NCBI GenBank assembly: GCA_021827985.1
Contig: JAKATL010000015.1
Span: 1-46,280, forward strand
Source of the DNA: a bacterium
GTDB taxonomy: Bacteria; Chloroflexota; Dormibacteria; Aeolococcales; Bog-877
DNA: 46,280 nucleotides
Reading direction: 5' to 3'
The notes under the pieces were generated by a model, which worked only from the letters and a program-made list of their open reading frames with translations, was not told the origin of the DNA and did not search any database. Numbering within the stretch: the first letter of the stretch is position 1; every line of letters begins with the position of its first letter. The position numbers and the translations under genes were made by a program. Below, piece after piece: positions 3,325 to 41,897 of the stretch.

Positions 3325-3491
3325 GACCTGGGTGAAAGCCGGCCGGGAGCAGCGGACGGTCCCAATTGGACTGGTGCGGTGAGCCCCCGGTGACGGCGGC
3401 CTTCGCCTCCCCGCCCTCCGCCGGTGGGTAGCGCGTGGTCCTGGGAAGGCGCGATGATCAGGGCAATCCCGGACAACAGGGAGGCGCGAGC

Positions 3492-7523: not shown

Positions 7524-8906
7524 ATGACCGTCGACCTGGCCCGCTGGCAGTTCGCCATCGTCACCATTTTCCACTTCTTCTTCGTGCCCATGACCATCGG
7601 GCTGGGGCTGCTGGTGGCGATCATGCAGACCCGGTACTACCGCAGTCACGACCCCACCTGGGACCGGCTGACCCACTTCTTCGGTCGCATCTTCCTCATC
7701 AGCATGGCGGTCGGGGTGGCCACCGGGATCGTCCTGGAGTTTGAGTTCGGGCTCAACTGGTCTGCCTACTCCATCTTCGTGGGCAACATCTTCGGGGCGC
7801 CCCTGGCGATCGAGGCGCTGCTGGCCTTCTTCTTGGAGTCCACCTTCGTCGGGGTGTGGATCTTCGGGCGCAACCGGATCCCCGCCGGGGCCCACCTGGC
7901 GTCGATCTGGCTCACCAGTGCCGGCACCATCGTCTCCGCCTTCTGGATCCTGGCCGCCAACGCCTGGATGCAGCATCCGGTGGGGTACACCGTCAAGGAC
8001 GGCCAGGCGGTGCTCACCAACTTCTGGGCGCTGCTGGCCAACTCCACCCTCTGGGCGGCCTTTGTCCACACCGTCCTGGGAGCCTTCGCCACCGCTGCTG
8101 CGCTGATGCTTGGCATCAGCGTCTGGCGTCTCTTCAGAGCCGATCCCGGCTCGGCGGCCCAGGAGGCCTTCCGCCGCGCCACCCGGATGGCGGCCGGGGT
8201 GCTGCTGGTGTCAGTCCTCTTCGCCGCGGCCGCCGGCGACCTCCAGGCCCGTCTGATGGACACCCAGCAGCCCATGAAGATGGCCGCGGCCGAAGCTCTC
8301 TACAACACGGAGGACGGCGCCAGCTTCTCCCTGCTCACCATCGGCAACCTGGCCGGACAGCCGGTCTTCCAGCTTCGGGTACCCCATCTCCTCTCCCTGA
8401 TCGCCGACCTGAGCTGGAACGGCCGGGTTCTGGGGATCAACCAGGTGCAGGCAGCCGAGAGGGCGAAGTACGGCCCCGGGAACTACACGCCCGTCATCTG
8501 GCTGACCTATTGGTCCTTCCGCATCATGGTCGGGGCGGGGATCCTCATGATCCTGCTCTCCGCCTGGGGGCTGTGGCTCTGCCGAGGTCGACGGGTGTTG
8601 CGCACCCGCTGGTTCCGCCGGGCTGCGGTCTGGGGCATCGGGCTGCCCATACTCGCCAACACCTTCGGCTGGATCTTCACCGAGGCGGGTCGGCAGCCGT
8701 GGATCGTCTACGGGCTGATGACCACCGTCCGGGGGGTCTCCTCGGTGAGCGCCGCCGACGTGGCTTTCACCACTGCGGTGTTCGTTCTGGTGTACACGAC
8801 GCTGGCAGCGGTCGCGGTGATGCTCACCGTGCGGGCCGCCCGGTATCCCCTGGAGGAGGCTGCGCCCCCTGCCGAGGGCCCGGGGCTCGCGGATCTGGTC
8901 TACTGA
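7524..8906 (+). CDS. cydA: Cytochrome bd ubiquinol/menaquinol oxidase subunit I
   Basis: The 460-residue integral membrane protein begins LARWQFAIVTIFHFFFVP, with His17 at the position of the proximal heme b595 ligand. AFVHTVLGAF carries the next conserved His, and IMVGAGILMI fits the Met-ligand helix. FGWIFTEAGRQPW is the diagnostic GRQPW motif. Together with CydB it oxidises quinol and reduces oxygen to water with high affinity, generating a proton gradient without pumping. At 460 residues it is shorter than the E. coli protein, consistent with the short Q-loop class. The start at 7524 lacks an obvious Shine-Dalgarno. cydB begins 28 bases downstream. Confidence 0.97.
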   Translation: MTVDLARWQFAIVTIFHFFFVPMTIGLGLLVAIMQTRYYRSHDPTWDRLTHFFGRIFLISMAVGVATGIVLEFEFGLNWSAYSIFVGNIFGAPLAIEALLAFFLESTFVGVWIFGRNRIPAGAHLASIWLTSAGTIVSAFWILAANAWMQHPVGYTVKDGQAVLTNFWALLANSTLWAAFVHTVLGAFATAAALMLGISVWRLFRADPGSAAQEAFRRATRMAAGVLLVSVLFAAAAGDLQARLMDTQQPMKMAAAEALYNTEDGASFSLLTIGNLAGQPVFQLRVPHLLSLIADLSWNGRVLGINQVQAAERAKYGPGNYTPVIWLTYWSFRIMVGAGILMILLSAWGLWLCRGRRVLRTRWFRRAAVWGIGLPILANTFGWIFTEAGRQPWIVYGLMTTVRGVSSVSAADVAFTTAVFVLVYTTLAAVAVMLTVRAARYPLEEAAPPAEGPGLADLVY

Positions 8907-8934
8907 CCGTGGAGCGGTCGGGAGGTGGGACCCC

Positions 8935-10005
8935 ATGTACACGGGTCTGAGCGCGACCTGGTTTGCCCTCATCGGTTTGCTCTTCGCGGGCTACTTCGTC
9001 CTTGAGGGGTTTGACTTCGGGGTCGGCATCGTGGGCCCCCTGGTGAGTCGGAATGAGATTGACCGCCGTCTCTGCCTCAACGCCATCGGCCCGACCTGGG
9101 ACGGCAACGAGGTCTGGCTGATCACCGCCGGGGGCGCGATGTTCGCCGCCTTCCCGCTCTGGTACGGCAAGCTTTTCAACGGGGCCTACCTGGCGCTGTT
9201 CCTGGTCCTCCTGGCGCTCATCGTCCGCAACGTGTCCTTCGAGTTCCGGGGACGGGTGGATGACCGGCGCTGGCGGCGCACCTGGGACGCTGCCAACTTC
9301 GGCGGCAGCCTGGTCGCGACCCTGGTCTGGGGCGTCGCCTTCACCAACTTCGCCCATGGGCTGCCGCTCACGGCTGCTGGCTACACCGGCGGCCTCTTGG
9401 GGCTGCTCAATCCGCTGGCCCTACTCGGAGGGCTGGCGGTGGTGGCGCTCTTTGCCTTCCACGGATCGGTCTTCCTGGCCCTCAAGACCGATGGTGACCT
9501 CAGGCAGCGAGCGCTTCAGGTCGGGCGGGCCGCCGGGGTCCTGGCGGTGGTGCTGGTGGCTGCCGCCGTGGCCGGTGTTGCGGCAGGTGGGCGGACCTGG
9601 GCGGGCGTCAGCGGAGCGCTCCCAGGCGCGGTGCCGCTGCTGCTGGCGCTCATCGCCGTGGCTGCTCTGATCACTGCCGTGGTCGCGGCGGGTCAGGGGC
9701 GGGAGCTGCCGACCTTTGCCGCCACCGGGGTGGCGGTCCTGCTCCTGCTGGGCGGGGTCTGGAGCCTCATGTACCCCATGGCCATCCCGGCCAGCTCGGG
9801 CGCCGTGGTGGCCGGGGTCCCTGGGGTGCCGATCGCCCTCGCGGCGTCTCAGCCCTACACCCTCACGGTCATGACCATAGTGGCGGGGATCTTCACCCCG
9901 GTGGTGCTCCTCTACCAAGGGTGGACCTACTGGGTGTTCCGGCGGCGCCTGGTCGGGCCATCTCTCGGCCCGCCAGCAGCCCGCGGCGGCGATCCGGTGC
10001 GGTGA
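8935..10005 (+). CDS. cydB: Cytochrome bd oxidase subunit II
   Basis: The 356-residue protein has around eight to nine membrane helices. The N-terminal FAGYFVLEGFDFGVGIV and GPTWDGNEVWLI blocks are typical of CydB, including the conserved EGFDFG and WDGNEVW motifs. It is the partner of CydA in the quinol oxidase; by family knowledge it packs around the heme-bearing subunit. GGGAGGTGGGACCCC precedes the ATG. Its TGA overlaps the GTG start of cydD in a GTGA tetranucleotide. Confidence 0.96.
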   Translation: MYTGLSATWFALIGLLFAGYFVLEGFDFGVGIVGPLVSRNEIDRRLCLNAIGPTWDGNEVWLITAGGAMFAAFPLWYGKLFNGAYLALFLVLLALIVRNVSFEFRGRVDDRRWRRTWDAANFGGSLVATLVWGVAFTNFAHGLPLTAAGYTGGLLGLLNPLALLGGLAVVALFAFHGSVFLALKTDGDLRQRALQVGRAAGVLAVVLVAAAVAGVAAGGRTWAGVSGALPGAVPLLLALIAVAALITAVVAAGQGRELPTFAATGVAVLLLLGGVWSLMYPMAIPASSGAVVAGVPGVPIALAASQPYTLTVMTIVAGIFTPVVLLYQGWTYWVFRRRLVGPSLGPPAARGGDPVR

Positions 10006-11786
10006 CAACCGCCCCCGGCGCCGTCACCCGGGCGGTCCGGGGGCCGAGGGTGGGGTCCGCCGACCGCCGGCTGCTCGCTGCCTGGACGGTTCGTCGGTCG
10101 GTGGCGGCATCGGTGCTGCTCGGGATGGCCTCGGCCGCTGCCGTGGTGGTTCAGGCCCTTGCGCTGGCCACCATTCTCGCACAGGAGATGGCGGGCAGCT
10201 CCGGGCTGCCGCTGGCGGCACTGGCCTGGCTGGGTGGTGCTGCCGTAGCGCGAGGGCTCTGCCTGCTGTCCGGGGAGGTGGTCGCAGGGCGCAGCGCGGA
10301 GGCTGCCAAGGCGGACCTGCGCCGACGGCTGCTCGGAGCGGTCCTGCAGCAGGCCCCGAGCGGTGTTCCTCCCATCGCCGAGGTGGCCACCGTGGCGGGC
10401 CGGGGCCTGGATGCCCTCGACACCTACGTGGGCCGGTACCTCCCGAATCTGGTCTTGGCGGTGCTCGTGCCCCTGGGGCTGGCAGCGGTGATCGGGGGGC
10501 TGGACTGGGTGTCGGGGGTGGTGGTTCTCGTCGTGCTCGCACTCTTCCCCCTCTTCGCCATCCTGGTGGGTGAGGCCAGCGGGGCGCTGGCCCGGGAGCG
10601 CTGGGCACAGGTCGAGGCCCTTGGGGGCCGGATCCTCGACGTCTTTGAGGGGCTGGCCGTCCTCAAGGCCTACGGTCGCAGCCGCCACCAGCGGGGGGAG
10701 ATCGCCAGAGCCGGCGAGCAGCTCCGGCTGGCCAGTATCTCGACCCTGCGGGTGGCCTTCCTCTCCGCACTGGTGCTGGAGACCCTGGCATCCGTCTCGG
10801 TCGCGTTGCTCGCCGTTCCTCTGGGACTGCGACTCCTGAACGGTTCGGTGCGCCTCTCCACCGCGCTGGCGGTGCTGGTCGTGGCCCCGGAGGTGTTCCT
10901 CCCCCTGAGGCGGGCCAGCAGCGAGTTCCACGACAGCACCGAGGGGTTGGCCGCGGTGGAGCGCGCTGAGAGTCTCATGCGAGGGTGGGGTGCCACTCCC
11001 GTGTCCCCTGGTGGGCCTGCAGAAGGCCGTGCCCCGGCCCCGTGGGCGGGGGTGCACCCGGCGCCGGACCCGGCCCTCTGCCAGGTCGCACTGCGTCAGG
11101 TGGTGGTGCGGCACCGGGACCGGAGAGCAGCCGTGCTCGCCGCTGCCGAGCTGACGCTCGAGCCCGGGCAAACGGTGGTACTCCTCGGTGCCAACGGGGC
11201 CGGCAAGTCCACCGCACTAAGGCTCCTGGCCGGACTCGCCACTCCGGAGTCAGGCACGGTGACCGTGGGAGGCAGAGATGTCCGGGAGCTGGACCCCGCG
11301 AGCTGGCGCCGGCGCTTGGGATACCTACCCGAGCGCCCGGCTGTCATCGCGGACACCCTGGCCGCCAACCTACGCCTGGCCGCTCCCACCGCCAGCGACG
11401 ACCAGCTGTACCAGGCACTGCATGAAGTGGGGGCGGGCCGGCTTCTGGCCGCTCTCCCCCAGGGTCTGGGAACACTGGTCGGTGCCGGCGGGAGGCCGCT
11501 CTCCGCCGGTGAGCGGCAGCTGCTGGCCCTGGCCCGGGTGGGCCTTCGGCCCGCCTCCCTGTACCTGCTCGACGAGCCCACCGTGCACCTGGACGACGAA
11601 TCCGAGGAGACGATCGTTGCCGCGCTCCGGCGTCAGCTTGCCCAGCGCACCGCCTTGATCGTGACCCACCGGCCGGCCGTGGCCCGGCTGGGCCACCGAG
11701 TGATGACCCTCGAGAGGGGCCGCTTCCGGGAGCTCGAAGGGCCGTGGGCGGCCATGGTAGCGCAGCTCGCTGGCGAGCTCCCGTGA
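10002..11786 (+). CDS. cydD: ABC exporter CydD for cytochrome bd assembly
   Basis: This 594-residue half-transporter has six predicted helices in the first 310 residues, including the CydD-like RYLPNLVLAVLVPLG and FLSALVLETLASVSVAL helices, followed by one nucleotide-binding domain. Walker A is GANGAGKS (Lys402), the signature is LSAGERQ instead of the consensus LSGGQ, Walker B is LYLLDEPT, and the H-loop is VTHRP. CydDC exports cysteine/glutathione to the extracytoplasmic side and is needed for heme insertion into cytochrome bd. The GTG at 10002 overlaps the cydB stop; an in-frame upstream start at 9921 would lie inside cydB and is unlikely. The assignment as CydD rather than CydC rests on gene order and the transmembrane motifs. 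Confidence 0.93.
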   Translation: MTTAPGAVTRAVRGPRVGSADRRLLAAWTVRRSVAASVLLGMASAAAVVVQALALATILAQEMAGSSGLPLAALAWLGGAAVARGLCLLSGEVVAGRSAEAAKADLRRRLLGAVLQQAPSGVPPIAEVATVAGRGLDALDTYVGRYLPNLVLAVLVPLGLAAVIGGLDWVSGVVVLVVLALFPLFAILVGEASGALARERWAQVEALGGRILDVFEGLAVLKAYGRSRHQRGEIARAGEQLRLASISTLRVAFLSALVLETLASVSVALLAVPLGLRLLNGSVRLSTALAVLVVAPEVFLPLRRASSEFHDSTEGLAAVERAESLMRGWGATPVSPGGPAEGRAPAPWAGVHPAPDPALCQVALRQVVVRHRDRRAAVLAAAELTLEPGQTVVLLGANGAGKSTALRLLAGLATPESGTVTVGGRDVRELDPASWRRRLGYLPERPAVIADTLAANLRLAAPTASDDQLYQALHEVGAGRLLAALPQGLGTLVGAGGRPLSAGERQLLALARVGLRPASLYLLDEPTVHLDDESEETIVAALRRQLAQRTALIVTHRPAVARLGHRVMTLERGRFRELEGPWAAMVAQLAGELP

Positions 11787-13621
11787 GAGGTGTTGAGGGC
11801 CGACCGCCACCCTCCTCGGTCTGGGGCCTGTCCTCCGAGCTTGGGCCCTGGCGGTTGCGGTCCCTGGCCGCGGCCTCCGCCGCCGGCACTGCCTCCGCCA
11901 TCGCCGGCATCGGGCTTTTGGCCACCTCCGGTTGGCTCATCACCCGCGCCTCCCAGCGGCCTCCCATCTTCGAGCTCTCGGTGGCCATTGGCATGGTCCA
12001 GGCCTTCGCCCTGGGACGGGGGCTGTCTCGCTACCTGCAGCGGCTGACGGTGCATGGGGCGGTACTCGGCCGCCTCACGCGGCTCCGCCTCTGGCTGTTC
12101 GACCGGATCGAGGAACTGGTGCCGAACGGGCTTCCTGGCCGAGCCTCGGGGGCCCTGCTCAGCGGCTTTCTCTCCGACGCCGAGGCGGTGGTCGAGGCCC
12201 TGGCCAAGGGGTTCAACGCGCTGGTCGACAGCGGTGCCAGCCTGGGTGCCGGGGTCCTGCTGGTGGCCTTGCTGGACCCGGGCGCGGCGGCGGTGCTGCT
12301 GACGGTGGGCGTTTTGATGGTCTTAACCGCCATTCTGACTTCGCGGCTGGGCCGCGCCAGCGCCCGGGCTGCCACGACCCTGCGCTCGGAGCTCGCGGAG
12401 GCGGTGGTCGAAGCCCTGGTCACCGCGCCGGAGCTGCTGGCCTACGACCGCCAGGACCTGGTGGCCGAGCGGCTGGAGCAGATCCACCGGGCAGCCCGTG
12501 GGCTCGCCACTCGCCAGGGGCTGGTGGCCGGCTCTGCCCGGTTGCTGACCACCTGGCTGGGCGGAGCGGGCCTCATCGGTACGCTGCTGGCCGCAGTCGC
12601 GGCGCGGAGCTCAGGGCGGCTGTCCCCTGTCTTGCTGGCGGTGGTCGCGTTGGTGGCGCTGGTGGCGCTGGACCAGGTCGCCGCCCTGCCCCTGGCGCTG
12701 GCGTCCACCGGCTCAGGGAACGCTGCTGCCCGGCGACTTGGTGAGCTCGCCGGTCTCCGGGCACCGGCGCGGGAGCCCGCTTTCGATCACCCGCCGCCCG
12801 GGCCTGCCAACTGGGTCGCCCTGGATGACGTGGTTGTGTTCCCGCCGCTGGACCCCGGAGCGGGCCCGATCCTTGATGGGATCAGTCTAGCCACCACTCC
12901 CGGGCAGCGCCTCGCGCTCGTGGGCCCCAGCGGGGCAGGCAAGACCACGGTGCTGTCTTTGCTGCTCCACTTCCTGGAGCCCTCCAAGGGGCGGGTCACG
13001 GTCGGGGGGGTGGAGACTTCGGAGATGACCCGTGCCGGGCTGGCGGGCCGGCTCGGCTGGGTTCCTCCGGAGACCCCCATCTTCTCCGCCAGCCTGCGCT
13101 CCAATCTGCAATTGGCCGGCCCCCAAGCCGGCGACCAAGACCTCGTGGTGGCGCTGCGACGGGTGGGTCTGGAGCCCTGGTTCCAGCTCCTGCCCAGCGG
13201 GCTGGACACCAGGTTGGGTGCGGGGGGCAGCGCGGTCAGTGCCGGGGAGCGCCAGCGCTTGGGGCTGGCCAGGGCGCTGCTCTCCCGCGCTGAGCTGCTG
13301 CTGCTGGATGAGCCCGGCGCCCACCTGGACCCGTCCACCGCGATGGCCACTCTGGAAGAGCTGCTGGCCGCCGCGGACACCCGCTCCGTGGTCCTGGTGA
13401 CCCACGACCAAGCCACGGTGGACCTTGTCGACGAGGTGGTGTCCTTGCGCGCGGGTCGGGTGGTGGGGCGGCGGACCCGGGGTGGCCATCCCACGGATGA
13501 GGCGATGAGACACCTCGCCGGGCGCCCAGGGCAGGGTGAGGATGGACCGGCAGTACCCCCTGGTGGATTCGAACCACCGACCGTCGCCTTAGAAGGGCGC
13601 CGCTCTGATCCACTGAGCTAA
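11783..13621 (+). CDS. cydC: ABC exporter CydC, C-terminus reading through tRNA-Arg
   Basis: The 612-residue half-transporter has a membrane domain with the CydC hallmark ATSGWLITRASQRPP and VQAFALGRGLSRYLQRL, and a nucleotide-binding domain with Walker A GPSGAGKT (Lys387), signature VSAGERQ, Walker B LLLLDEPG and H-loop VTHD. It pairs with CydD. The GTG at 11783 overlaps the cydD stop as GTGA. No stop occurs before 13619-13621, so the last 23 codons run antisense through the tRNA-Arg gene, giving the tail PGGFEPPTVALEGRR, which is the well-known translation of a tRNA complement. That tail is unlikely to be functional; transcripts of the two genes must overlap. Confidence 0.93.
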   Translation: MRGVEGRPPPSSVWGLSSELGPWRLRSLAAASAAGTASAIAGIGLLATSGWLITRASQRPPIFELSVAIGMVQAFALGRGLSRYLQRLTVHGAVLGRLTRLRLWLFDRIEELVPNGLPGRASGALLSGFLSDAEAVVEALAKGFNALVDSGASLGAGVLLVALLDPGAAAVLLTVGVLMVLTAILTSRLGRASARAATTLRSELAEAVVEALVTAPELLAYDRQDLVAERLEQIHRAARGLATRQGLVAGSARLLTTWLGGAGLIGTLLAAVAARSSGRLSPVLLAVVALVALVALDQVAALPLALASTGSGNAAARRLGELAGLRAPAREPAFDHPPPGPANWVALDDVVVFPPLDPGAGPILDGISLATTPGQRLALVGPSGAGKTTVLSLLLHFLEPSKGRVTVGGVETSEMTRAGLAGRLGWVPPETPIFSASLRSNLQLAGPQAGDQDLVVALRRVGLEPWFQLLPSGLDTRLGAGGSAVSAGERQRLGLARALLSRAELLLLDEPGAHLDPSTAMATLEELLAAADTRSVVLVTHDQATVDLVDEVVSLRAGRVVGRRTRGGHPTDEAMRHLAGRPGQGEDGPAVPPGGFEPPTVALEGRRSDPLS

Positions 13622-19304: not shown

Positions 19305-21920
19305 TTACCTCCCGCTCCCCGTGTCGCCGCGGAGGACCCGCAGAGCTCCCCGGATAGGGTCGAAGTGGCGGTCGGCCACCCTTTCCTTGAGCGGGATGAT
19401 GGCGTTGTCGGTGATGTGAATGTGCTCCGGACAGACCTCGGTGCAGCACTTGGTGACGTTGCAATAGGCCAGGCCACCCTCCCCGTACAGCTGGGGCAGG
19501 CGGTTCAGCACGTCCTTGGGATGCATCTCCAGCGAGGCTATCCGGACCATGAAGCGAGGGCCGAAGAAGCGCGCCATCCCCTGGTGCTCGCGCATCACAT
19601 GGCAGACGTCCTGGCAGAGGAAGCACTCGATGCAGCGGCGTTGCTCGATCACCCTCTCGATGTCGCGCTGCTGGATGTCGAAGGGCGCCAAGTCACCGGG
19701 TGCCGGGGTGAAGGGCTGGATCTTCCGGTTGACCTCGTAGTTCCAGCTGACGTCGGTTACCAGGTCTCCCACCTTGGGGAACGACTGCATCGGCTGCACG
19801 ACGATCTCCGGAACCAGGGGGAGTAGGTCGTCGACTCTGGTCTTGCACAGAAGAGCTGGCCGCCCGTTGATCTCGGCGCTGCAGGAGCCGCACTTGGCCG
19901 CCTTGCAGTTCCAGCGGCACGCGAGGTCGCCCGCCCGGTTGGCCTGGATCCAGTGGATGCCATCCAGCACCACCATCCCCTCCACCACGGGCACCCGGTA
20001 GTGCTCGAAACCGCCTCCAGCGGCGTTGCCCCTCCAGACCCGGAAGGCAACCTCGCGGCCGGTCTCGCCATCCGCGTAGGTGATGCGGAGCTTCTTGGGC
20101 AGCTCCTCGTCGGGTGAGATCTCCGGCTTGGGCGCAGGCTGCCCCTTCTGGCGGGCATGGAGCTTGGCCTCAGCGGCGTCCGCCAGCACCGTGGCCGCCA
20201 CCCGGGTCTGGCCGGCGGCCAGCTCCGCCAGCCGCTCTGGCATGGGCTCGCGCTTGCGCCGGACCACTTCCATGTGGCCGCCGCCGCCCAGCCGGGCAAC
20301 CAGGTTGACCTGGCCCAGCTCATCGTCCCGGTCCGGGTGGTCGAGGCGCCACTGCGAGCCCCTGCTCTCCCGTCGCTCTAGGGCGGAGCGCACAATGGCC
20401 TCGCTCACGGTCAGCATGAAGAGATCGTCCCGCGCGCCGCTGAAGGCCGGGTTGTAGGCCCGGCCCCCCGGGACCCTGATCCTCGCCGCCCGCTCCTTGA
20501 GCTCCAGGATTCTCTCCAGCGCCTCTCGAAGGGACTCGTCCGTGCGCGCGATGGCGGCCCCCGCCTGCATCGCCTCCTGCAGCTCGCGGTGCAGACGGTA
20601 GGGGTCCTCCCCTTCCCCGCCAGACAGCGGGCGGAGCAGCACCCGGCGCTCCTCCTCGATCTGGCCCTCGTCAACCGCGGGCAGCTGGGGCAGCGTCTTC
20701 GCGTACTCGGCGGCGGCGTCTCCCGCCCGCTTGCCAAACACCAGGATGTCGCCCAGGGAGTTCCCGCCCAGCCGGTTGGCGCCGTGAAGACCCGCCGCCA
20801 CCTCCCCGCCGGCGAACAGCCCCGGCACGGTGGTGGCGGCGGTGTCAGCCTCCACGTTGATCCCGCCCATGGTGTAGTGGATCGTGGGGGCGACCTCCAT
20901 CGGCTCCTTGGTGATGTCAACCCCGGCGAGGCTGTGGAACTGCTCGTACATGGACGGCAGCCGCCGGCGAATGGTCTCGGAGCCAAGGTGGGTCACGTCC
21001 AGGAAGGCTCCCCCGTGAGGCGAGCCGCGCCCGGCCTGGACCTCCTTGAAGATGGAGCGGGCGACAACGTCCCGGGAGGAGAGGTCCTTCTTCACCGGGT
21101 CGTAGCGCTCCATGAAGCGCTCACCCAGAGAGTTGCGCAGGATGCCGCCCTCTCCGCGGACCGCCTCGGTGACCAGGATCCCCCGGGCGCCCGGCGGCCA
21201 CACCATGCCCGTGGGGTGGAACTGGACGAACTCCATGTCCTTGAGCTCAGCTCCGGCCTCATAGGCCATGGCCGCCCCGTCCCCGGTGCCCTCCCACGAG
21301 TTGGAGGTGATGCGGTACATCCGACCCCACCCTCCGGTGGCCAGCACCACCGCCTTGGCCCGGATGGTGATGAACTCCCCATCCGCCCGCTGGTACCCGG
21401 TGGCGCCGGCGATCCGGTCACCGTCCTTCAGAAGACGGGTCATGGTGGTCTCCATGTGGACCGTGACCCCCTCCTGATGGACCAGGCGGTCCTGGCAGGT
21501 GCGGATGAGCTCCAGCCCGGTGCGGTCGCCGATGTGGGCGAGCCGCCTCCACGAGTGGGCACCGAAGGCGCGCTGGCTGATCTTGCCCTGCTTGGTGCGG
21601 TCGAAGACCCCCCCCCATTGCTCCAGCTCGATGACCCTATCGATCACCTCGTGGGCGAAGAGCTCCACCATCCGCCAGTTGTTGACCATCGCCCCGCCCC
21701 GCATGGTGTCCCCGAAGTGGGTCTCCCAGGAGTCCTCGGGATCCAGGTTGCCGAGAGCGGCGGCGATCCCCCCCTCGGCCATCACCGTGTGGGCCTTGCC
21801 CAGGAGGGACTTACAAACCACCCCTACCGAGCAGCCCGCCTCGGCGGCGGCGATGGCGGCCCGCATCCCCGCCCCCCCAGCCCCCAGGACCAGGACGTCG
21901 TACTCCGCCTCTGCGGTCAT
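19305..21920 (-). CDS. sdhAB: Fused succinate dehydrogenase SdhA-SdhB (flavoprotein plus iron-sulfur subunit)
   Basis: One uninterrupted 871-codon frame encodes both catalytic subunits of complex II. Residues 1-570 are SdhA: FAD motif GAGGAGMRAA, KAHTVMAEGG with the His44 expected to hold FAD covalently, FHPTGM, TEAVRGEGG and GANRLGGNSLGD. A linker of about 40 residues (roughly 570-610) follows. Residues 611-871 are SdhB: [2Fe-2S] ligands Cys672, 677, 680, 692; [4Fe-4S] Cys763, 766, 769, 773; [3Fe-4S] Cys820, 826, 830, then CPEHIHITDNAIIP. The SdhB part and its SdhC resemble mycobacterial Sdh1, which works with menaquinone. GGAGGGGAGG precedes the ATG, and sdhC ends 10 bases upstream. Confidence 0.93.
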   Translation of the reverse strand: MTAEAEYDVLVLGAGGAGMRAAIAAAEAGCSVGVVCKSLLGKAHTVMAEGGIAAALGNLDPEDSWETHFGDTMRGGAMVNNWRMVELFAHEVIDRVIELEQWGGVFDRTKQGKISQRAFGAHSWRRLAHIGDRTGLELIRTCQDRLVHQEGVTVHMETTMTRLLKDGDRIAGATGYQRADGEFITIRAKAVVLATGGWGRMYRITSNSWEGTGDGAAMAYEAGAELKDMEFVQFHPTGMVWPPGARGILVTEAVRGEGGILRNSLGERFMERYDPVKKDLSSRDVVARSIFKEVQAGRGSPHGGAFLDVTHLGSETIRRRLPSMYEQFHSLAGVDITKEPMEVAPTIHYTMGGINVEADTAATTVPGLFAGGEVAAGLHGANRLGGNSLGDILVFGKRAGDAAAEYAKTLPQLPAVDEGQIEEERRVLLRPLSGGEGEDPYRLHRELQEAMQAGAAIARTDESLREALERILELKERAARIRVPGGRAYNPAFSGARDDLFMLTVSEAIVRSALERRESRGSQWRLDHPDRDDELGQVNLVARLGGGGHMEVVRRKREPMPERLAELAAGQTRVAATVLADAAEAKLHARQKGQPAPKPEISPDEELPKKLRITYADGETGREVAFRVWRGNAAGGGFEHYRVPVVEGMVVLDGIHWIQANRAGDLACRWNCKAAKCGSCSAEINGRPALLCKTRVDDLLPLVPEIVVQPMQSFPKVGDLVTDVSWNYEVNRKIQPFTPAPGDLAPFDIQQRDIERVIEQRRCIECFLCQDVCHVMREHQGMARFFGPRFMVRIASLEMHPKDVLNRLPQLYGEGGLAYCNVTKCCTEVCPEHIHITDNAIIPLKERVADRHFDPIRGALRVLRGDTGSGR

Positions 21921-21930
21921 CCTCCCCTCC

Positions 21931-22707
21931 TCAGAATCCGAGATGGGGGTCGTGGATGACCCCGTACTGCAAGAGACGGATGTAAAGATCGGTGGCGACC
22001 AGGGTGAACAGGCTGATCCAGGCGAAGGTGGAGTGGCGGGCGTTGAGCCAGCTCACCCCCTTCCAGGCCCGGTGGCGCTGCCGTCCCCCCAGGGCACAGC
22101 TGAAGCAATCCACTCCACCTCCAACCAGGTGGCGGAGGGAGTGGCAGCCCAAGGTGTAGGCGCTGAGGAAGGTGATGTTGACCAGCATGATCGCCGTGCC
22201 CAGGCCGAAACCCAGGTGGCCGTGGTACCAGAAGGCCTGGTAGGTATCGATCCAGAGCACCACCAAGAAGCCCACCGCAAAGTACACGAGGAAGCGGTGC
22301 AGGTTGTTGAGCACAAAGGGCAGCCGGCTCTCCCCCCGGTAGGCGGACCCCCTGCCGGTGGGGGAGGCGCCAGCCAGGATCTGGGGCTCGCGGATCGCGC
22401 ATGCCGGCGGATCAGAGAAGAAGGCGCGGTAGTAGGCCTTGCGGTAGTAGTAGCAGGTGGCCCGGAACCCCAGCGGGATGTAGAAGATGAAAAGCGCCGG
22501 GGAGACCGGGGTCCGCCCCACCGCCACCTGGGGCGAGTAGAAGGGCGACAGGTACTGGTGGTACTGGTTGGAGTGGAAGAAGACTATGGTCCAGAGGCTG
22601 TAGAGTCCGAAGAGGCTGAGCCAGGCCGCGACGTTGGCTGGGTAGACCCACCACCGGTCGGGGCGGCGGACGTCGGCTGCGGACGGCGAGGAGAAGCTGG
22701 CGGCCAT
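21931..22707 (-). CDS. sdhC: Succinate dehydrogenase membrane anchor SdhC (Sdh1 type)
   Basis: The 258-residue protein has about five hydrophobic helices and matches the Sdh1-type single anchor rather than the paired SdhC/SdhD of E. coli. Recognisable pieces are PLGFRATCYYYRKAYYRAFF, NLHRFLVYFAV (His), GCHSLRHLVGG (two His) and RHSTFAWISLFTLVATDLYIR. The RATCYYYRKAYYR stretch is characteristic of this group. Histidines could take part in heme or quinone binding, but this Sdh1 class need not carry heme. The ATG overlaps the mdh stop as TGATG. sdhAB follows 10 bases downstream. No separate sdhD is present. Confidence 0.88.
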   Translation of the reverse strand: MAASFSSPSAADVRRPDRWWVYPANVAAWLSLFGLYSLWTIVFFHSNQYHQYLSPFYSPQVAVGRTPVSPALFIFYIPLGFRATCYYYRKAYYRAFFSDPPACAIREPQILAGASPTGRGSAYRGESRLPFVLNNLHRFLVYFAVGFLVVLWIDTYQAFWYHGHLGFGLGTAIMLVNITFLSAYTLGCHSLRHLVGGGVDCFSCALGGRQRHRAWKGVSWLNARHSTFAWISLFTLVATDLYIRLLQYGVIHDPHLGF

Positions 22708-23630
22708 CAGCCCAGCACCGCCGTCACTTCCCGGACGGCGGCGGCGGACCGCTCCAGTTCCGCCCTCTCGGACTGGGTCAGCTCCACTTCCAGGACGTCC
22801 ACGACACCACCGGCTCCGAGCTTGACCGGGACCCCCATCACCACTCCGCTGAGCCCGTACTCCCCCTCCAGGCGGATGGCGCAGGGCAGCACTAGCCCGC
22901 GGTCGCGGAGGATGGCGTCCACCATCTGGGCCACCGCGGCGGCGGGCGCGTAGTAGGCGGATCCGGTCTTGAGCAGCTTCACCACCTCGGCGCCCCCGTC
23001 CCGGGTCCGCTGCACGATCTCCTCCAGACGGCCGTCCGGAATTAGCCGCCCCACCGGCACCCCGGCGACGCTGGTGACCCCCCTGAGCGGCACCATGGTG
23101 TCGCCGTGCCCACCCAGCACGTAGGCCTCCACGCTGCGCACGGAGACTCCGAGCTCGGCGGCCACGAAGGAGCGGAACCGGGCCGTGTCCAGCACCCCGG
23201 CCATCCCGATCACCCGGCGACGGTCCAGGCCGCTGGCCCGGATGGCGAGCTCCGTCATCACATCGAGGGGGTTGGTCACCATGACCAGCACCGCCTCGGG
23301 GGAGTGGCGCACCACCTCTTCCACCACCGGGCCCACGATCTGGGCGTTGGCGCTGATCAGGTCATCCCGGCTCATGCCCGGCTTGCGGGCCAGGCCGGAG
23401 GTGACGACCACCACCCGCGACCCCTCGGTGATCGCCATGTCCGTCGAACCCGCCACCGAGCTGTCGTAGCCCACCACCGGCGCCGCCTCGCGCAGGTCGA
23501 GGGCCTTTCCCTCGGCCAGCCCCTCCACCACGTCCACCAGTGCTACGTCGACGAGATCCATCTCGGCCAGCCGCTGGGCCGTGGTAGCCCCCACGTTTCC
23601 CGCCCCGATCACCGAAACCTTCTGCCTCAT
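22707..23630 (-). CDS. mdh: Malate dehydrogenase (LDH-like type)
   Basis: The 307-residue protein has the NAD motif GAGNVGATTA, the active-site loop GLARKPGMSRDDL (Arg rather than Gln at the specificity position, so malate rather than lactate), VTNPLDVMT, and the catalytic His in GGHGDTMVP. It interconverts malate and oxaloacetate in the TCA cycle. ATG 23630 is preceded by GGGGAGGT with a five-base gap. A TAGAAT box at 23687-23682 (minus) could be its -10, giving about a 45-base leader. It is the first gene of mdh-sdhC-sdhAB-osmC. Confidence 0.95.
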   Translation of the reverse strand: MRQKVSVIGAGNVGATTAQRLAEMDLVDVALVDVVEGLAEGKALDLREAAPVVGYDSSVAGSTDMAITEGSRVVVVTSGLARKPGMSRDDLISANAQIVGPVVEEVVRHSPEAVLVMVTNPLDVMTELAIRASGLDRRRVIGMAGVLDTARFRSFVAAELGVSVRSVEAYVLGGHGDTMVPLRGVTSVAGVPVGRLIPDGRLEEIVQRTRDGGAEVVKLLKTGSAYYAPAAAVAQMVDAILRDRGLVLPCAIRLEGEYGLSGVVMGVPVKLGAGGVVDVLEVELTQSERAELERSAAAVREVTAVLG

Positions 23631-23709
23631 CGGACCTCCCCTGCCCGGGCACGAGCCCACCCCAATGCGGAAACCGAGTCCATTCTAGGCAGTCGGACCT
23701 GGGCCGACT

Positions 23710-28950: not shown

Positions 28951-30495
28951 TCAGCCGTGGACGACCGAGATGCCCTGGAGGAGGGTGTAGATCACGGCGG
29001 GGAAGATCCCCAGCACGATGGTGCCGGCCCCGGCCAGCGCCACGACCAGCACCGCGGGGCCTACGGCGGTGGGTGCTGCCATGGCCGTGCCCTCGGGCGA
29101 CACCGAGGCCACCTCGAACTCCTCGACCGCTCCCACGTCGGCAGCCGGCGCGTACATCTTGAGGATCACTCTGAGGTAGTAGAACAGGGAGACGGCGGAG
29201 GTCAGGATGCCCCAGATGGCGAGGGCGAGCTGCCCATCGTGGATGGCCGCCGAGAACAGGAAGAACTTTCCGAAGAAGCCCACGGTGAGGGGGAATCCCG
29301 CCAGCGACAGCATGAACAGGGACATCAGCCCCGCCAGCACCGGCTCCCGCCGGGCCAACCCTGCCAGCTCGGAGTAGCGATCGCAGTCCTCGCCCCTCCG
29401 GCTGAGGATGGTGACGACGGCGAAGGCTCCGGTGTTCATGAAGGCGTAGGCGGCCAGGTAGTAGAGCGACGCCTGGGTGCCGTCGGGACGGCCCAGCGCC
29501 ACCCCGATCATGATGTAGCCGGCCTGAGCGATACCGGAGTACGCCAGAAGGCGCTTGATCGAGGTCTGGGCCACCGCCACCACGTTGCCGTAGATCATGG
29601 AGATGATCGCCACCACCGCTATGGGCACCGTCCACTCGGCCCGGTAGGGGGCGAGGGTGGCGGAGAAGAGGCGCAGGAAGACCGCGAAGGCCGCCACCTT
29701 GGTGGCGACCGACATGAAGGTGGTCACCACCGCCGGAGAGCCCTGGTAGACGTCGGGGGTCCACCAGTGGAACGGCGCCGCCGACACCTTGAAGGCCAGA
29801 CCCACCGCCAGGAGGCCCACCGCCGCCAGGACCATGGGGTCGATGTGTCCGGCGGTTGCATCACGAAGGAGGAAGGCGTGGATGGCGGTGAGGGAGGTGT
29901 GCCCAGTCTCCCCGTACAGAAGTGCCATCCCGTAGAGGAGGAAGCCGGAGGCGAACCCCCCCAGCAGGAGGTACTTCATCGCCCCTTCCTGGCTGTGCTG
30001 GTCGTCGCGGGCGAAGCCGGCGAGCACGTACAGCGGGATGGACAGCAGCTCGATGCCGAGGAAGATGACGATCAGGTTGAGGGCCCCGTCCAGCACCAGC
30101 ATGCCGGCCACCGAGGCCAGGAGCAGGATGTAGTACTCGCCCTCCGCCAGCCCCCGGCGCCGCAGGTAGCCGGGGCTGAGCACCACCACGGCGAGGGCGG
30201 TGATCAGCACCACGAAGTCGGCGAAGAGGGCGAAGCGGTCGTTGGCGTAGGCCCCGTTGAAGACCACGATGGGGCCGGAGTTGGCGATCCACTGGCCGAT
30301 GGCGGTCCCCAGGGCTGCCAGCAGGAAGAGGCCGGTCAGTCCGGCCAGCCACACCTCCTGACCGCGGGGGCGAACCAGGTCCCAGAGCAGGACCATGACC
30401 GCCCCCCCTCCGACGATGAGGATGGGCAGGATCCCCAGGAGGTTGCCGACGGGGACGAAGTGGAGGGGGTACCCGGGCGCGGTGGACGCCATCAC
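28951..30495 (-). CDS. nuoN: NADH-quinone oxidoreductase subunit N
   Basis: The 514-residue antiporter-like membrane subunit has about 14 helices. KYLLLGGFASGF and AAPFHWWTPDVYQGSP, the latter specific for NuoN, and IKRLLAYSGIAQAGYI carry the conserved Lys residues of the proton channel. The GTG start overlaps the nuoM stop as GTGA. It is the last nuo gene; a GT2 gene follows after 10 bases. Confidence 0.96.
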   Translation of the reverse strand: MMASTAPGYPLHFVPVGNLLGILPILIVGGGAVMVLLWDLVRPRGQEVWLAGLTGLFLLAALGTAIGQWIANSGPIVVFNGAYANDRFALFADFVVLITALAVVVLSPGYLRRRGLAEGEYYILLLASVAGMLVLDGALNLIVIFLGIELLSIPLYVLAGFARDDQHSQEGAMKYLLLGGFASGFLLYGMALLYGETGHTSLTAIHAFLLRDATAGHIDPMVLAAVGLLAVGLAFKVSAAPFHWWTPDVYQGSPAVVTTFMSVATKVAAFAVFLRLFSATLAPYRAEWTVPIAVVAIISMIYGNVVAVAQTSIKRLLAYSGIAQAGYIMIGVALGRPDGTQASLYYLAAYAFMNTGAFAVVTILSRRGEDCDRYSELAGLARREPVLAGLMSLFMLSLAGFPLTVGFFGKFFLFSAAIHDGQLALAIWGILTSAVSLFYYLRVILKMYAPAADVGAVEEFEVASVSPEGTAMAAPTAVGPAVLVVALAGAGTIVLGIFPAVIYTLLQGISVVHG

Positions 30496-32261
30496 GGCAG
30501 GCTCCTCGCGGTGGCGCGCGAGCTCGCCAGCGCAGGGTCGGTGGCGGTCTGACGGTTGGCCGCCTGCACGTACTGTGCGGCACTGAACCTCCCGTAGCGG
30601 ATGACCGGGGCGGGATAGACGCCGATGACGAGCATGAGGGCCACCAGGGGGACCAGGGCCACCACCTCAACCGGGCCCACATCGAGCCGTCCCAGCCTGC
30701 GGGACACGGTCTGGAGCTGCTCGGAGACCGCCTCCGTCCCCGGCAGGCGAAGCTCGCCCTGGGTCAGGCCCTGGTAAAGCCGAAGCATGTACCAGCAGGC
30801 CAGGATCACCCCCAGGCTGGCCAGCACCGCCCACACCGGGCTGGACTGAAAGGCACCCAGCAGGATGAGGAACTCCCCGACGAAGCTGTTGAGCAGTGGC
30901 ATGCCCAGTCCGGCCAGGGTGACCACCAGGAACAGCCCCGCCAGCACCGGCATGGGGCGCGCCAGCCCACCCAGCTGGGACAGGGTGCGGGTGGCGAACC
31001 TGGACTCGACGACCCCCACGCAGATGAAGAGGGCCGCGATCACGATGCCGTGGTTGACCATCTGGATGATCGCCCCGTTTAGTCCGTCCACGTTGAGGGC
31101 GAAGATCCCCAGTACCACGAAACCCAGGTGGCTGATGGAGGCGAAGCCCACGATCCGCTTGATGTCAGTCTGGGCGAGAGCCGCCAGCGCCCCGTAAAGA
31201 ATGCTGGCGATGGCCAGGCCCAGCATCAGGGGCTGGAAGGTGTGGCTGGCCTGGGGGAAGAGGGTCAGGTTGTAGCGGATGAGCCCGAACGCCCCCAGCT
31301 TGCTGACGATGCCCGCGAAGAAGATCAGGAAGGGGGTGGTCCCGGAGCTGTAGGCATCGGGCAGCCAGCTGTGGAAGGGTACGAGTGGCACCTTGATGGC
31401 GAAGGCCAGGGCGAAGGCCAGGAACAGCCACTCCTGGGGGTTGAGCAGCGAGAAGCTGTGGCCAAACAAGCTGAAGGTCGTGGCCTGGGTGGTATGGACG
31501 AACGACTGGGCGGCGATCAGGGTGGGCAGGTCGAAGGTGTAAACGCCGGTCTGAGCCCCGGTGATGAAGTACACCCCGAAGATGGCCAGCAGCATGAAGA
31601 GGCTGCCGGCGACGGTGTAAATGATGAACTTGAGCGCGGCCCGGCCCCGGTTGCGGTCTCCCCACCCGATCATGAGGAAGTACAGGGGGATCAGGGCGGC
31701 CTCCCAGAAGAAGTAGAAGAGGATCAGGTCAAGGGAGGTGAGCACTCCGAGCACGCCCACCTCGGAGAGCAGCATCAGGACGGCGAAGGTGCGCAGCCTC
31801 TTCTCCCGCTGAGAGAGGACCACGGCTGCCACCAGAAATAGGAGAGCCGCCAGCGCCATCAGCCAGACCGAGAGTCCGTCCACCCCGAGGTGATAGGAGA
31901 AGTTGATGGGCGGCGGAGCGGCCTGGTTGAAGGCGGAGTTGCCCTCGTTGAAGGCCGGGTGCAGGTGGGAAAGCGAAGTCCCCGACTGCAACCAGTTGAC
32001 CTGCTCCTGGAACTGGAAGGTGATGGGCGAGTGAATCGTCGAGAGGGCCTGGCCGTTGGCGGTGCCGCTGAGCTTCGAGGCGGCCGCCGAGGGCACTGCC
32101 AGGTAGGCCACCAAGACAACGCAGGTGAGTCCCAGGGTTAGAGCTGTCACCGCCATCAGTGCCAGACGGATTGCCCGGGCCCTGGAGGATGGGATGGCCA
32201 GAATGGCCACCGCCCCCGCCAGGGGCAGGAACAGCGTCACCGAGAGAATCGGCCAGCTCAT
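30492..32261 (-). CDS. nuoM: NADH-quinone oxidoreductase subunit M
   Basis: The 589-residue antiporter-like subunit is recognised by YHLGVDGLSVWL, FYFFWEAALIPLYFLMIGWG (with the essential Glu), KVPLVPFHSWLPDAYS and DIKRIVGFASISHLGF. It forms one of the proton pathways of the membrane arm. An unusual insertion of about 50 residues lies between the first two helices (about 55-105). ATG start in an ATGA overlap with the nuoL stop. Confidence 0.96.
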   Translation of the reverse strand: MSWPILSVTLFLPLAGAVAILAIPSSRARAIRLALMAVTALTLGLTCVVLVAYLAVPSAAASKLSGTANGQALSTIHSPITFQFQEQVNWLQSGTSLSHLHPAFNEGNSAFNQAAPPPINFSYHLGVDGLSVWLMALAALLFLVAAVVLSQREKRLRTFAVLMLLSEVGVLGVLTSLDLILFYFFWEAALIPLYFLMIGWGDRNRGRAALKFIIYTVAGSLFMLLAIFGVYFITGAQTGVYTFDLPTLIAAQSFVHTTQATTFSLFGHSFSLLNPQEWLFLAFALAFAIKVPLVPFHSWLPDAYSSGTTPFLIFFAGIVSKLGAFGLIRYNLTLFPQASHTFQPLMLGLAIASILYGALAALAQTDIKRIVGFASISHLGFVVLGIFALNVDGLNGAIIQMVNHGIVIAALFICVGVVESRFATRTLSQLGGLARPMPVLAGLFLVVTLAGLGMPLLNSFVGEFLILLGAFQSSPVWAVLASLGVILACWYMLRLYQGLTQGELRLPGTEAVSEQLQTVSRRLGRLDVGPVEVVALVPLVALMLVIGVYPAPVIRYGRFSAAQYVQAANRQTATDPALASSRATARSLP

Positions 32262-34261
32262 GTGAGCCTCAGCCCCATGAGCACCACCCCCAAGACGGCG
32301 AAGAAGAAGAACCAGAGCGCGTAGTCCTTGAGGAAGCCCGTCTGGAAGGTCCGCAGGTCGGCGCTCAGCTGGGCCACCGCATCCCTCACCCCTCCCACCG
32401 CCGAATCGAACACCCCGGGCTCCAGGACCCGCCGCACCCCGGTGGCCAGGGCCAGCACCGGCCCCACCAGGGCCACGTCGTACACCTCATCCCAATAGAA
32501 CTTGCGGAAGGAGAGCTGGTAGAGCCAGGGCAGGCGTTGGGGGATCAGTTCGCGCGACAGCACCTGCTTGCCGTACACCGCCCAGGCCACCCCCAGCCCC
32601 AGGAGGCTCAGCAGAACCCCGGCGAGCAGGGCCAGCCCATCTACCAGGGCACTGGCGTGGGCCGCCGGTATGCCCACCACCGGCTGAAGGAAGGCCTGGA
32701 ACAGGGTCACCGGCGCGAAACCGGCGAAGTCAATGTTGAGGAATCCCACAACCGTGGAGAGGCCGGCGAGCACCAGCACCGGGAGCAACATCACCGTGGG
32801 CGCCTCGTGGGCGTGCTCCGCGTTCTCGGAGCGTGGCTCTCCGGTGAACGCCACCCAGACGACCCGGAAGATGTAGAAGCTGGTGAGGACGTTCACCGAC
32901 ACCCCGATCACCCACAACCAGGGGACCGCAGGGCCCAGGGCCAGCCCCTGCCCCAGGAGCTCCTCCTTGCTGAAGAAGCCGGCGAAGATGGGAATGCCGG
33001 CCAGGGCCAGGGAGCCGGTGGTGAAGGCGAGGAAGGTCCAGCGCATGTGCCGGCGCAGACCTCCCATCACCCTTATGTCCTGGTCGTCATGGAGGGCATG
33101 GATCACATTGCCGGCGGCCAGGAAGAGAAGGGCCTTGAAGCAGGCGTGGGTGAAGAACTGGAACATCCCGGCGGAGTAGGCGCCCACGCCCACCGCGAAG
33201 ATCATTAACCCGATCTGGCTCATGGTCGAGTAGGCGATCACCCGCTTGATGTCGTACTGGGTGCAGCCGATGATGCCGGCCATGAGGGCGGTGCCGATCC
33301 CCACCACCGCCACCAGCCCGGCGGCCACCGGCGCCTGCTGGAAGACCGGGTGGAACCGCGCCACCAGATAGACGCCCGCGGTCACCATGGTGGCGGCGTG
33401 GATCAGCGCCGACACCGGGGTGGGGCCCTCCATGGCATCGGGGAGCCAGGTGTGCAGTGGCCACTGCGCCGACTTGGCAGCGGCACCCAGGAAGAGCAGG
33501 ATCCCGATGGCGGTCACCATGCCCCCGCCGACCGGACCCAGCCCGCCGTGGAAATGGGCAGAGGGCCCGACGTTGGCGAAGATGGTCTGCATATCCACGG
33601 TGTGCAGCAGCCGTCCGGAGGGGCCCCGCAGGTTGAGGAAGATGAGGAAGGCGGCCAGAACCAGCCCGACGTCCCCGATCACCTGGGTGATGAAGGCCTT
33701 GCGCCCCGCCAGCACCGCCGAGGGCCGCTGGTACCAGAAGGCGATCAGGACATAGGAGGCGAAGGCCACCATGGCCCAGCCGACGATGAGGAACACCAGG
33801 CTGTTGCTCATCACCAGCACCAGCATGCTGGTGATGAAGAGGTTCATCAGGGCGAAGAAGCGGTTGAACCCCGGGTCCTCGGCCATGTAGCCAACGCTGT
33901 AGACGTGGATCACCCCGCCGACCCCGGTGATCACCAGCATCATCAAGATGGAGAGGGGGTCGATGCGCAGGCTGAAGGCGGCGCTGAGGCCGGAGTGGGC
34001 AGTCACCCCCGACCCGCTTCCTACGGAGGCGTTCAGCCAGTTCCAGAAGGTGACCGTAACGCCGCGGTGGGACGGGCTCTGGGCCAGCATCGTGGCCAAG
34101 AGCACCAGGGTCGCCACGAAGGCCGCCAGCACCGATCCCGGCCCCAGGTAGGTGACCAGTCGCCGCGGCAGTCGCCCGGCGGTCACCGCGTTGACGGCGA
34201 AGGAGGCGGTGGGCAGCCCCAGGACGACGGCGCTGAGCACCAGCGTGAGCTGAGGGTTCAC
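32258..34261 (-). CDS. nuoL: NADH-quinone oxidoreductase subunit L
   Basis: The 667-residue protein has about 16 helices and includes [37 protein letters not shown] and the broken-helix [17 protein letters not shown]. The C-terminal part contains the amphipathic lateral helix and anchor helix expected for NuoL, ending in a single hydrophobic stretch. GTG start in a GTGA overlap with the nuoK stop. Confidence 0.97.
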
Positions 34262-34563
34262 TCGGACATCTCGCTGAGCTCGTCCAGGTCGAGGCGCCTC
34301 CCGCTGCGGTAGACGCCGGTGATCAGCGCCAGCCCAACCACCACCTCACTGGCGGCCACGGCGATCACGATGAGGGCGAAGACCTGGCCGGCCATGGTGT
34401 GGGTGTAGCGGGCGTAGGTGACCAGGGCCAAGTTCGCCGAGTTCAGCATCAGCTCGATGCACATGAACACCACGATCGGGTTACGGCGCACCAGGACTCC
34501 AGCTGCCCCGATGGCGAACATGGCGGCGGAGAGGATGAGGAAGCCCGGAAACAGCCCACTCAC
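34258..34563 (-). CDS. nuoK: NADH-quinone oxidoreductase subunit K
   Basis: The 101-residue protein has three membrane helices with the two conserved membrane Glu residues, in [17 protein letters not shown] and [11 protein letters not shown]. The GTG at 34563 overlaps the nuoJ stop (GTGA) and the TGA overlaps the nuoL start. The start is set by this overlap and by family length. Confidence 0.95.
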
Positions 34564-35093
34564 GCCAACTGCCTCCGCCGCCGGGAGAGGTACACGGCCC
34601 CCACGGCCGCCACCAGCAGCAGCAGTGAGGTGACCTCGAAGGGAAGCAGGTAGGTCGTGAAGAGCTGGTCGCCCAGGGTCTGGACCTGACCGTGGGCGTT
34701 CACCGCCACCGGTGAGAACGGCCCCAGGGCCCCGTGCAGACGCCCATGCGCCCCCACGGTGATCCCGTTGAGGGTGAGGCGCCCGATGAGCAGCGTGAAG
34801 GCCACCGCGCCGACTCCACCCAGCAGAAGGCGCAACTCCACCGACCGCAGCCGCTCCTCCGCTCCCGGGGAGAGCAGGGCGATGATGAAAACGAAGAGCA
34901 CCATCACAGCGCCGGCGTAGACGATGATCTGGACAGCGGCGATGAACTGGGCGTCCAGGAGCAGGAAGAGCACTGCCAGCGCCACCATGTTGAGCACCAG
35001 GCTCATCGCCGAGTAGATGGTGCGCTGGCTCAGCACCACTCCCAGGGCTCCCATGAAGGCGATCACCGCCGCCAGGCCGAAGACGACGCTCAC
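34560..35093 (-). CDS. nuoJ: NADH-quinone oxidoreductase subunit J
   Basis: The 177-residue protein has five hydrophobic segments, with the NuoJ marks [20 protein letters not shown] and [18 protein letters not shown] (pi-bulge helix region). The GTG at 35093 overlaps the nuoI stop (GTGA) and its TGA overlaps nuoK. Confidence 0.95.
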
Positions 35094-35665
35094 TCCGCCC
35101 CTCCCCTCCCGCCGGGGATCGGAGGCCGGAGACCGGGCGCTGAGCCAGCGGGCCCGGCGTGGCTGGACCCGGCCCCTCTCGGGCTGGGTTGAGAGGCGGC
35201 CTGGCCAAGGCCGGGGGCGACGGCCACCGGGAGCGGCTGGAAGCCCGGCCAGGCCTCCAGGAGATCATCCTTGGTGGCCACCAAATGCTCCCGCTTGTAG
35301 TCGACCAGGTCCAGTCGGGGCCCCAGGGTGATGGCCTCGGTGGGACAGGCCTCGGCGCAATAGCCACAGTAGATACAGCGCATGAGGTTGATCTCATAGC
35401 GGATCGCGTAGCGCTCACCGGGAGAGACCGGGTGCTCCGGGTCGTTCTCCGCCGCCTGCACGTAGATGCACCCCACGGGGCAGGCACCGGCACAGAGCTC
35501 GCAGCCGATACATTTCTCCAGCCCGTTGTCGTAGCGGTGGAGGATGTGCCGCCCGCGATGCCGGGGCGGGACCGGGCGCTGCTCCTCGGGGTACTGGATG
35601 GTGATCGGCGGGCTCACCATCTCCCGCATGGTGGTGCGCAAGCCCCCCAGCAGCTCACGGAACAT
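35090..35665 (-). CDS. nuoI: NADH-quinone oxidoreductase subunit I (two [4Fe-4S])
   Basis: This 191-residue peripheral-arm protein carries two ferredoxin motifs: Cys52/55/58/62 ([12 protein letters not shown]) and Cys97/100/103/107 ([12 protein letters not shown]). They bind clusters N6a and N6b between NuoG and NuoB. After residue 145 there is a 45-residue Pro/Gly/Ser/Ala-rich tail that I do not see as part of the core family fold. ATG with GGAGGTG eight bases upstream. nuoH lies 33 bases upstream. Confidence 0.95.
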
Positions 35666-35698
35666 AGGAGCTCACCTCCGGTAGTCGGATGGCCCGGG

Positions 35699-40458: not shown

Positions 40459-40619
40459 CGTGCCCCTCCGCCCCCCACGGAACCATCTCGGGTCCGACCT
40501 CGCTCCCCGATGGACGGAGAAGGCAGCGCGTCAGCTCGCTGCTCATTCGCTCCCACTTTACCAACCCACCCTGCGGTCCCGAGGTGCGGGCCGGGGGTCC
40601 GATCGTTCAGGATGGTGAG
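40459..40619. promoter_or_regulatory. Divergent intergenic region between nuoE and the flippase gene
   Basis: About 160 bases must hold the promoter for nuoEFGHIJKLMN (minus) and one for the flippase (plus). I can point to the Shine-Dalgarno sequences at both ends but not to a convincing -35/-10 pair in either direction. Confidence 0.35.
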
Positions 40620-41891: not shown

Positions 41892-41897
41892 GGTGTC

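Follow-up and report, generated by a model that had tools for sequence, protein, structure and literature searches.

According to the available text of one review (PMC10238741), the soluble domain of complex II consists of two subunits in most members of the family. The question raised by contig JAKATL010000015.1 of a Dormibacteria genome (assembly GCA_021827985.1) is whether these two subunits can be one: an earlier note, made from the letters of the 46,280 bp window (the whole stretch of DNA analysed), had proposed that SdhA and SdhB are joined there in a single polypeptide of 871 residues. The gene, sdhAB, is an in-frame fusion shared by 14 of the 18 genomes sampled from its family, and we consider it highly probable that its product forms, as a single chain, the catalytic half of a succinate:quinone oxidoreductase of the Sdh1 type (class F), anchored to the membrane by SdhC.

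Gene structure, domains and ligands

The sdhAB gene (19305..21920, minus strand) was one continuous frame of 871 codons with an ATG start and no internal stop, encoding a chain with a computed mass of 95.4 kDa. The Pfam domains of the product followed in the order FAD_binding_2 (residues 8–389), Succ_DH_flav_C (444–534), Fer2_3 (626–725) and Fer4_8 (760–834), which together with the open frame confirmed the joining of the two subunits. The SdhA half (residues 1–569; 20214..21920, minus strand) comprised the FAD domain, the flavoprotein C-terminal domain and the native SdhA tail, and was followed by a linker of 43 residues (570–612; 20085..20213, minus strand) and the SdhB half (613–871; 19308..20084, minus strand). 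The linker had been placed at about residues 570–610 and described as rich in charged residues and proline, and contained 14 charged residues and 5 prolines.

The FAD and cluster ligands, likewise claimed to be intact, were all found. Alignment to E. coli SdhA (1NEK) and residue checks identified H44, H235, R283, H348 and R383 in the SdhA half; H44, which aligned with E. coli H45, we take from family knowledge to be the histidine of covalent FAD attachment, and the other four are presumably the catalytic positions. The SdhB half had 11 cysteines at the expected spacing (672/677/680/692, 763/766/769/830 and 773/820/826), which we assign, again by family knowledge, as ligands of the 2Fe-2S, 4Fe-4S and 3Fe-4S clusters. 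By prediction, the marks of complex II were present in both halves, i.e. the covalent-FAD histidine with catalytic His and Arg residues in the first, and ligands for all three clusters in the second.

Operon, membrane anchor and class

Immediately upstream lay sdhC (21931..22707, minus strand), encoding a single membrane anchor with conserved Cys and His residues that is a homologue of SdhC of Mycobacterium smegmatis Sdh1, and before it mdh for malate dehydrogenase (22707..23660, minus strand), the stop of which overlaps the sdhC start by one base. A Shine-Dalgarno-like GGAGGGGAGG (21921..21930, minus strand), read directly from the sequence, was located between the sdhC stop (21931–21933) and the ATG of sdhAB. 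The same position of sdhC was seen in 11 of 11 fused genomes matched, out of 21 genomes searched.

Among solved structures, Sdh1 of M. smegmatis (PDB 7D6V/7D6X), a class F complex II with one anchor subunit, was the closest relative of both halves and of the anchor, in agreement with the Sdh1-like enzyme with one anchor that had been suggested. Its SdhA chain (7d6v A) matched the first half in two stretches (6–275 and 278–549), its SdhB chain (7d6v B) the second half at 625–856 (E-value 7.5e-87), and chain C was the sole hit for the sdhC product (E-value 5e-40). Nine anchor residues (C85, C103, H137, C188, H189, H193, C201, H225 and H255), which may include ligands of the membrane-embedded Rieske-type cluster of class F anchors, were invariant in 20 rows, two of which were the window's own; C85, C103, H137, C188, H189, H193 and H225 match Sdh1 in the alignment, whereas C201 is His in Sdh1. 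By homology, the anchor is predicted to be the single Sdh1 SdhC-type that characterises class F.

Unlike Sdh1, where SdhA (635 aa) and SdhB (249 aa) are separate, the catalytic subunits here form one chain of 871 aa. The single frame departs from the usual make-up of class F, but that is not the criterion of the class, which rests on the membrane region (PMC10238741, available text). sdhAB would accordingly be described as a class F variant with fused catalytic subunits, its single-chain state being predicted from sequence, and it is apparently undescribed: the available text of the same review did not mention an SdhA-SdhB fusion, and none was found in a search of the open-licence literature, with subscription journals largely outside its range. 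A fused archaeal fumarate reductase, suggested by the abbreviation Frd in PMC11237513, was rejected, as the fused enzyme in the available text of that paper is a fumarase; SdhA fissions are held there to be technical. Multi-centre flavo-iron-sulfur enzymes with their subunits in one chain also include fused Nfn and glutamate synthase, which are unrelated enzymes and not complex II.

Genes of respiration were abundant elsewhere in the window (7524–13621 and 30492–44709), i.e. cytochrome bd subunits I and II, behind which two ABC transporter genes were located, and a complex I cluster. A protein of glycoside hydrolase family 15, the N-terminal domain of which is trehalase-like, was encoded at 3435–5315.

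Fused relatives and coding pattern of the linker

A search of about 5.8 billion proteins returned, among the best 120 of 7997 matches, 50 fused proteins of 863–894 aa, namely the window's own (P0001) and 49 others (P0002–P0049 and P0051) with identities of 76–92%, as well as two further, shortened ones (P0050 and P0052). NCBI names were available for 13 of the listed fused proteins, of which 10 were Candidatus Dormibacteria or Dormiibacterota and 3 others. Of the 46 fused proteins measured (of 50), 44 had a distance of 82 or 83 residues from the SdhA motif PMPxxL to the SdhB motif GMVVLD. The linker had a mean identity of 72%, and its length hardly varied.

Codon differences were compared among 14 fused loci from 14 genomes, leaving out L033, the SdhA and SdhB parts of which were identical to those of L032, and the split loci L021 and L030. 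Differences per codon position were 0.194/0.182/0.463 in the linker and 0.102/0.063/0.371 in the SdhA core. Summed over pairs, the linker (570–612) had 1226 synonymous and 1079 amino-acid-changing codon differences and no stop, compared with 15525 and 5517, respectively, in the SdhA core. The third-position excess and the lack of stops across the linker in 14 loci indicate that it is coding, though less constrained than the SdhA core.

Apparent fusions in other lineages

Looking for SdhA proteins with a length of about 870 residues, which the earlier note had put forward as a check, also brings up many false fusions. Besides the 50 Dormibacteria-type fusions, 30 single-chain proteins with SdhA and SdhB motifs were present among the matches listed, 11 from the protein search and 19 from a search with the SdhB half (limited to long proteins, best 120 of 226 matches), the range of which leaves more distant complex II classes beyond reach. 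These were compared with a profile of the SdhA C-terminus (190 positions), for which 70 split SdhA sequences had been aligned; the shortened proteins P0050, P0052 and P0054 were left out of this test. At least 98% of the profile was covered by all 50 Dormibacteria-type fusions including P0001, and by 56 of 56 split SdhA, the majority of which had themselves gone into the profile. Coverage was below 85% in 23 of the 30 other proteins, with 7 reaching that figure, and 27 of the 30 stopped short of the last ten positions, which only P0061, P0133 and P0135 reached; as the last-ten cut was chosen post hoc, the 85% coverage figure is given beside it. By eye, P0133 was out of frame around the join, and P0126 and P0131 were in frame with part of the SdhA tail missing. 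Each of these five (P0061, P0133, P0135, P0126 and P0131) was a one-sequence cluster. Most of the 30 would be indel artefacts, and a few may be lone fusions.

The same data bear on whether sdhAB itself is a product of sequencing or assembly, i.e. an indel merging two separate, overlapping genes. Such joins do seem to occur with these genes, given the 27 of 30 other apparent fusions that miss the end of the profile, but the complete SdhA C-termini of the Dormibacteria-type fusions, even with a profile that leans to split Dormibacteria relatives and so favours them, and a linker codon pattern that remains coding in 14 genomes leave this explanation with a negligible chance. A true fusion is the reading retained below.

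Length was discarded as proof of fusion, since the hits outside the Dormibacteria type were mostly out of frame. Neither blastp coverage against a set containing fused proteins nor blastp to split SdhA C-termini discriminated true from false fusions. A rough regex test, in which 46 of 50 fusions of the Dormibacteria type passed, as did 1 of 11 other apparent fusions and 47 of 56 split SdhA, was replaced by the profile test.

Apparent SdhAB fusions with an out-of-frame SdhA C-terminus, of which public protein sets contain many, included P0062, P0063, P0065, P0067, P0077, P0095, P0099, P0123, P0124, P0129, P0130, P0140, P0153 and others, and are probably due to assembly indels. A different arrangement, SdhB first with roughly 250–400 residues behind it, was seen in 39 of 58 newly listed long proteins (e.g. 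P0136, P0142, P0157 and P0169). The extra part had no Pfam match above cut-off in the five scanned (P0136, P0138, P0152, P0157 and P0169), and a similar tail was common to P0136, P0142, P0157 (named Acidothermaceae) and P0169, possibly a conserved fusion of SdhB to an unknown domain. Among the 39, P0125, P0128, P0141 and P0151 carried different precomputed domains, and some may be artefacts.

Distribution within the order

How widespread such fusions are, which the earlier note did not know, can be answered in part: the fusion is common in the window's family and was not seen in the other family of the order. The order was sampled with 50 genomes, 18 of them of the window's family. In the latter, 14 genomes had the fused gene (including G386, where a contig end cuts it after residue 850), two genomes of one genus (G381 and G405) had split genes, and no orthologue was found in two incomplete genomes, of which G231 gave no match and G403 fragments of a distant relative. 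Since two genomes of the same family are split, the fusion is not needed for function. In the other family, none of 32 genomes gave a match that extended from SdhA into SdhB, and several gave partial matches only; for some of these 32, the sequence at the junction showed the genes to be split. Among the matches listed from 400 genomes of the phylum, those spanning both halves outside the family contained one or two stops. A pattern scan with one genome per species gave at least 80 loci, of which 1 was fused (on a Dormiibacterota contig), 78 were split and 1 lacked the second half.

One genome, G119, had not only its fused gene but also, at the edge of a contig, parts of another SdhA/SdhB pair that is more distant (L040 and L046; C57:6-1183), with identities of 42% and 59% and one TAG within the second match, which may represent a paralogue or contamination.

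Origin of the join

Split sdhC-sdhA-sdhB relatives (L011 and L035 of the window's family, L018–L020 of the other family) share the gene order with adjacent sdhA and sdhB, and are 69–78% (SdhA) and 63–73% (SdhB) identical to the window. Unlike in the window, the two genes of these five loci are in different frames, the start of sdhB overlapping the stop of sdhA as ATGA or GTGA, e.g. ATGA behind a GGGGAGGG stretch in L011 and GTGA in L035. A candidate sdhB start overlapping the sdhA stop in this manner was found in 13 of 19 split loci listed; in split relatives, stop and start either overlap or are near each other. The linker of the fused proteins corresponds to the SdhA tail and SdhB head of the split relatives; in L011, the tail (GETRVAATDLADAADA...) and head (...LRIAYDDG) flank the same stretch, which runs through unbroken in the fused proteins. 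On manual count, the distance from RVAAT to LRI was 33 residues in the window, 44 in L011 and 41 in L035. Because this stretch is shorter in the fused gene and the frames overlap at the split boundary, a net frame-changing loss would have been needed and not a mere stop mutation; such a loss at the overlapping gene boundary is the likely origin of the join.

Trees of SdhA, SdhB and both joined placed the split genus (G381 and G405) beside the fused G386 with supports of 88/83, 91/78 and 92/82; L036 was left out of this set, and L050–L055 out of the joined tree. An SdhA tree in which the 50 fused proteins were combined with 5 split relatives, and with 13 rows as outgroup (without P0050, P0052, P0054 and P0064–P0120), placed the 5 split sequences beside the fused P0051 (98/84), and the well-supported branches of this tree alone force two changes. 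Holding all fused rows together was rejected neither in the former analysis (AU p 0.147) nor in the latter (0.233). The history may have been one fusion, one fusion with a later split, or two fusions.

Structure model and assembly

The AlphaFold model of the sdhAB chain, of moderate quality (mean pLDDT 74.5, pTM 0.61), gave both halves, and the linker structure prediction proposed as a check was carried out with it: the linker was predicted to be mostly unstructured, with pLDDT below 50 at residues 571–584 and 594–612 and a weak helix at 577–591. Much of the flavin region was of low confidence, as was the linker. In a Foldseek search with the model, 7d6v_A was the top match at a TMt of 0.81, and 7d6v_B was matched at a TMt of 0.93. 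The structure alignment consisted of 70 chosen rows (34 fused, 18 split SdhA and 18 SdhB).

The predicted disorder of the linker and the start codons around residues 643–651 in all 14 loci would suit a fused gene whose chain is separated by linker proteolysis or an internal start, leaving ordinary separate subunits as the working enzyme. Met649, common to the 14 loci and in some of them behind a GGAG-like sequence, might conceivably serve as the start of a shortened SdhB, but as the 2Fe-2S domain begins at residue 626, its first part would then be missing. No ATG, GTG or TTG codon occurs in the window gene from residue 579 to 642, so that no start there is common to all 14 loci; together with the conserved identity and length of the linker, this makes separate working subunits a distinctly unlikely outcome.

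We suggest that sdhAB is made and kept as one polypeptide, in which the SdhA part would fold first and bind FAD, the covalent attachment at H44 proceeding without SdhE and on a chain to which SdhB is already tethered. The tethered SdhB would then dock via the flexible linker, as in Sdh1, which would fix a 1:1 stoichiometry and alter assembly, as had been supposed from the fusion. Electrons would leave FAD, travel over the 2Fe-2S, 4Fe-4S and 3Fe-4S clusters and so reach the anchor and quinone.

SdhE (PF03937) was not detected in any of the order's 50 genomes, whether with the fused gene or not, in a search where only E. coli and Caulobacter matched among 14 control genomes. As the split relatives also have no detected SdhE, its absence permits the fusion and does not explain it. 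For E. coli SdhA, the available text of PMC9557727 reports that flavinylation without SdhE is possible, fumarate-driven and nearly 20-fold slower. In mitochondria, according to the available text of PMC10784507, SDHAF2 (SdhE in bacteria) sits on the surface of SDHA later taken by SDHB, and FAD has to be attached before assembly for full function of the complex. The tethered SdhB might itself act as a flavinylation factor in cis, placed at the SdhE-binding surface and ordering the flavin region, which would let FAD attachment take place with the partner docked. We regard this as rather unlikely; if true, assembly would run in the reverse order to that described for mitochondria.

Direction of catalysis

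The best NCBIfam model for the protein is named fumarate reductase/succinate dehydrogenase, and the two directions are not cleanly separable by sequence, which leaves room for an enzyme acting mainly as a fumarate reductase. Family matches to citrate synthase and haem-copper oxidase in the host genome, cytochrome bd in the window and the likeness to Sdh1 fit an aerobic respirer instead, and fumarate reduction as the main activity appears improbable. With these citrate synthase and oxidase matches, and with the sdhAB protein giving one match only in the host genome, succinate oxidation is the likely direction. PF02621, which we take to be the MqnA family, was not found in the host genome (93% complete), and MenB matches were below cut-off only, so no quinone type is claimed.

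Significance

The sdhAB gene would provide a ready single-gene SdhAB for structural and electron-transfer work, and a chain with SdhB already tethered would be a direct test of the order in which FAD attachment precedes assembly. For the family, the finding means that the subunit make-up of a core complex of the TCA cycle and respiration can change within one bacterial family.
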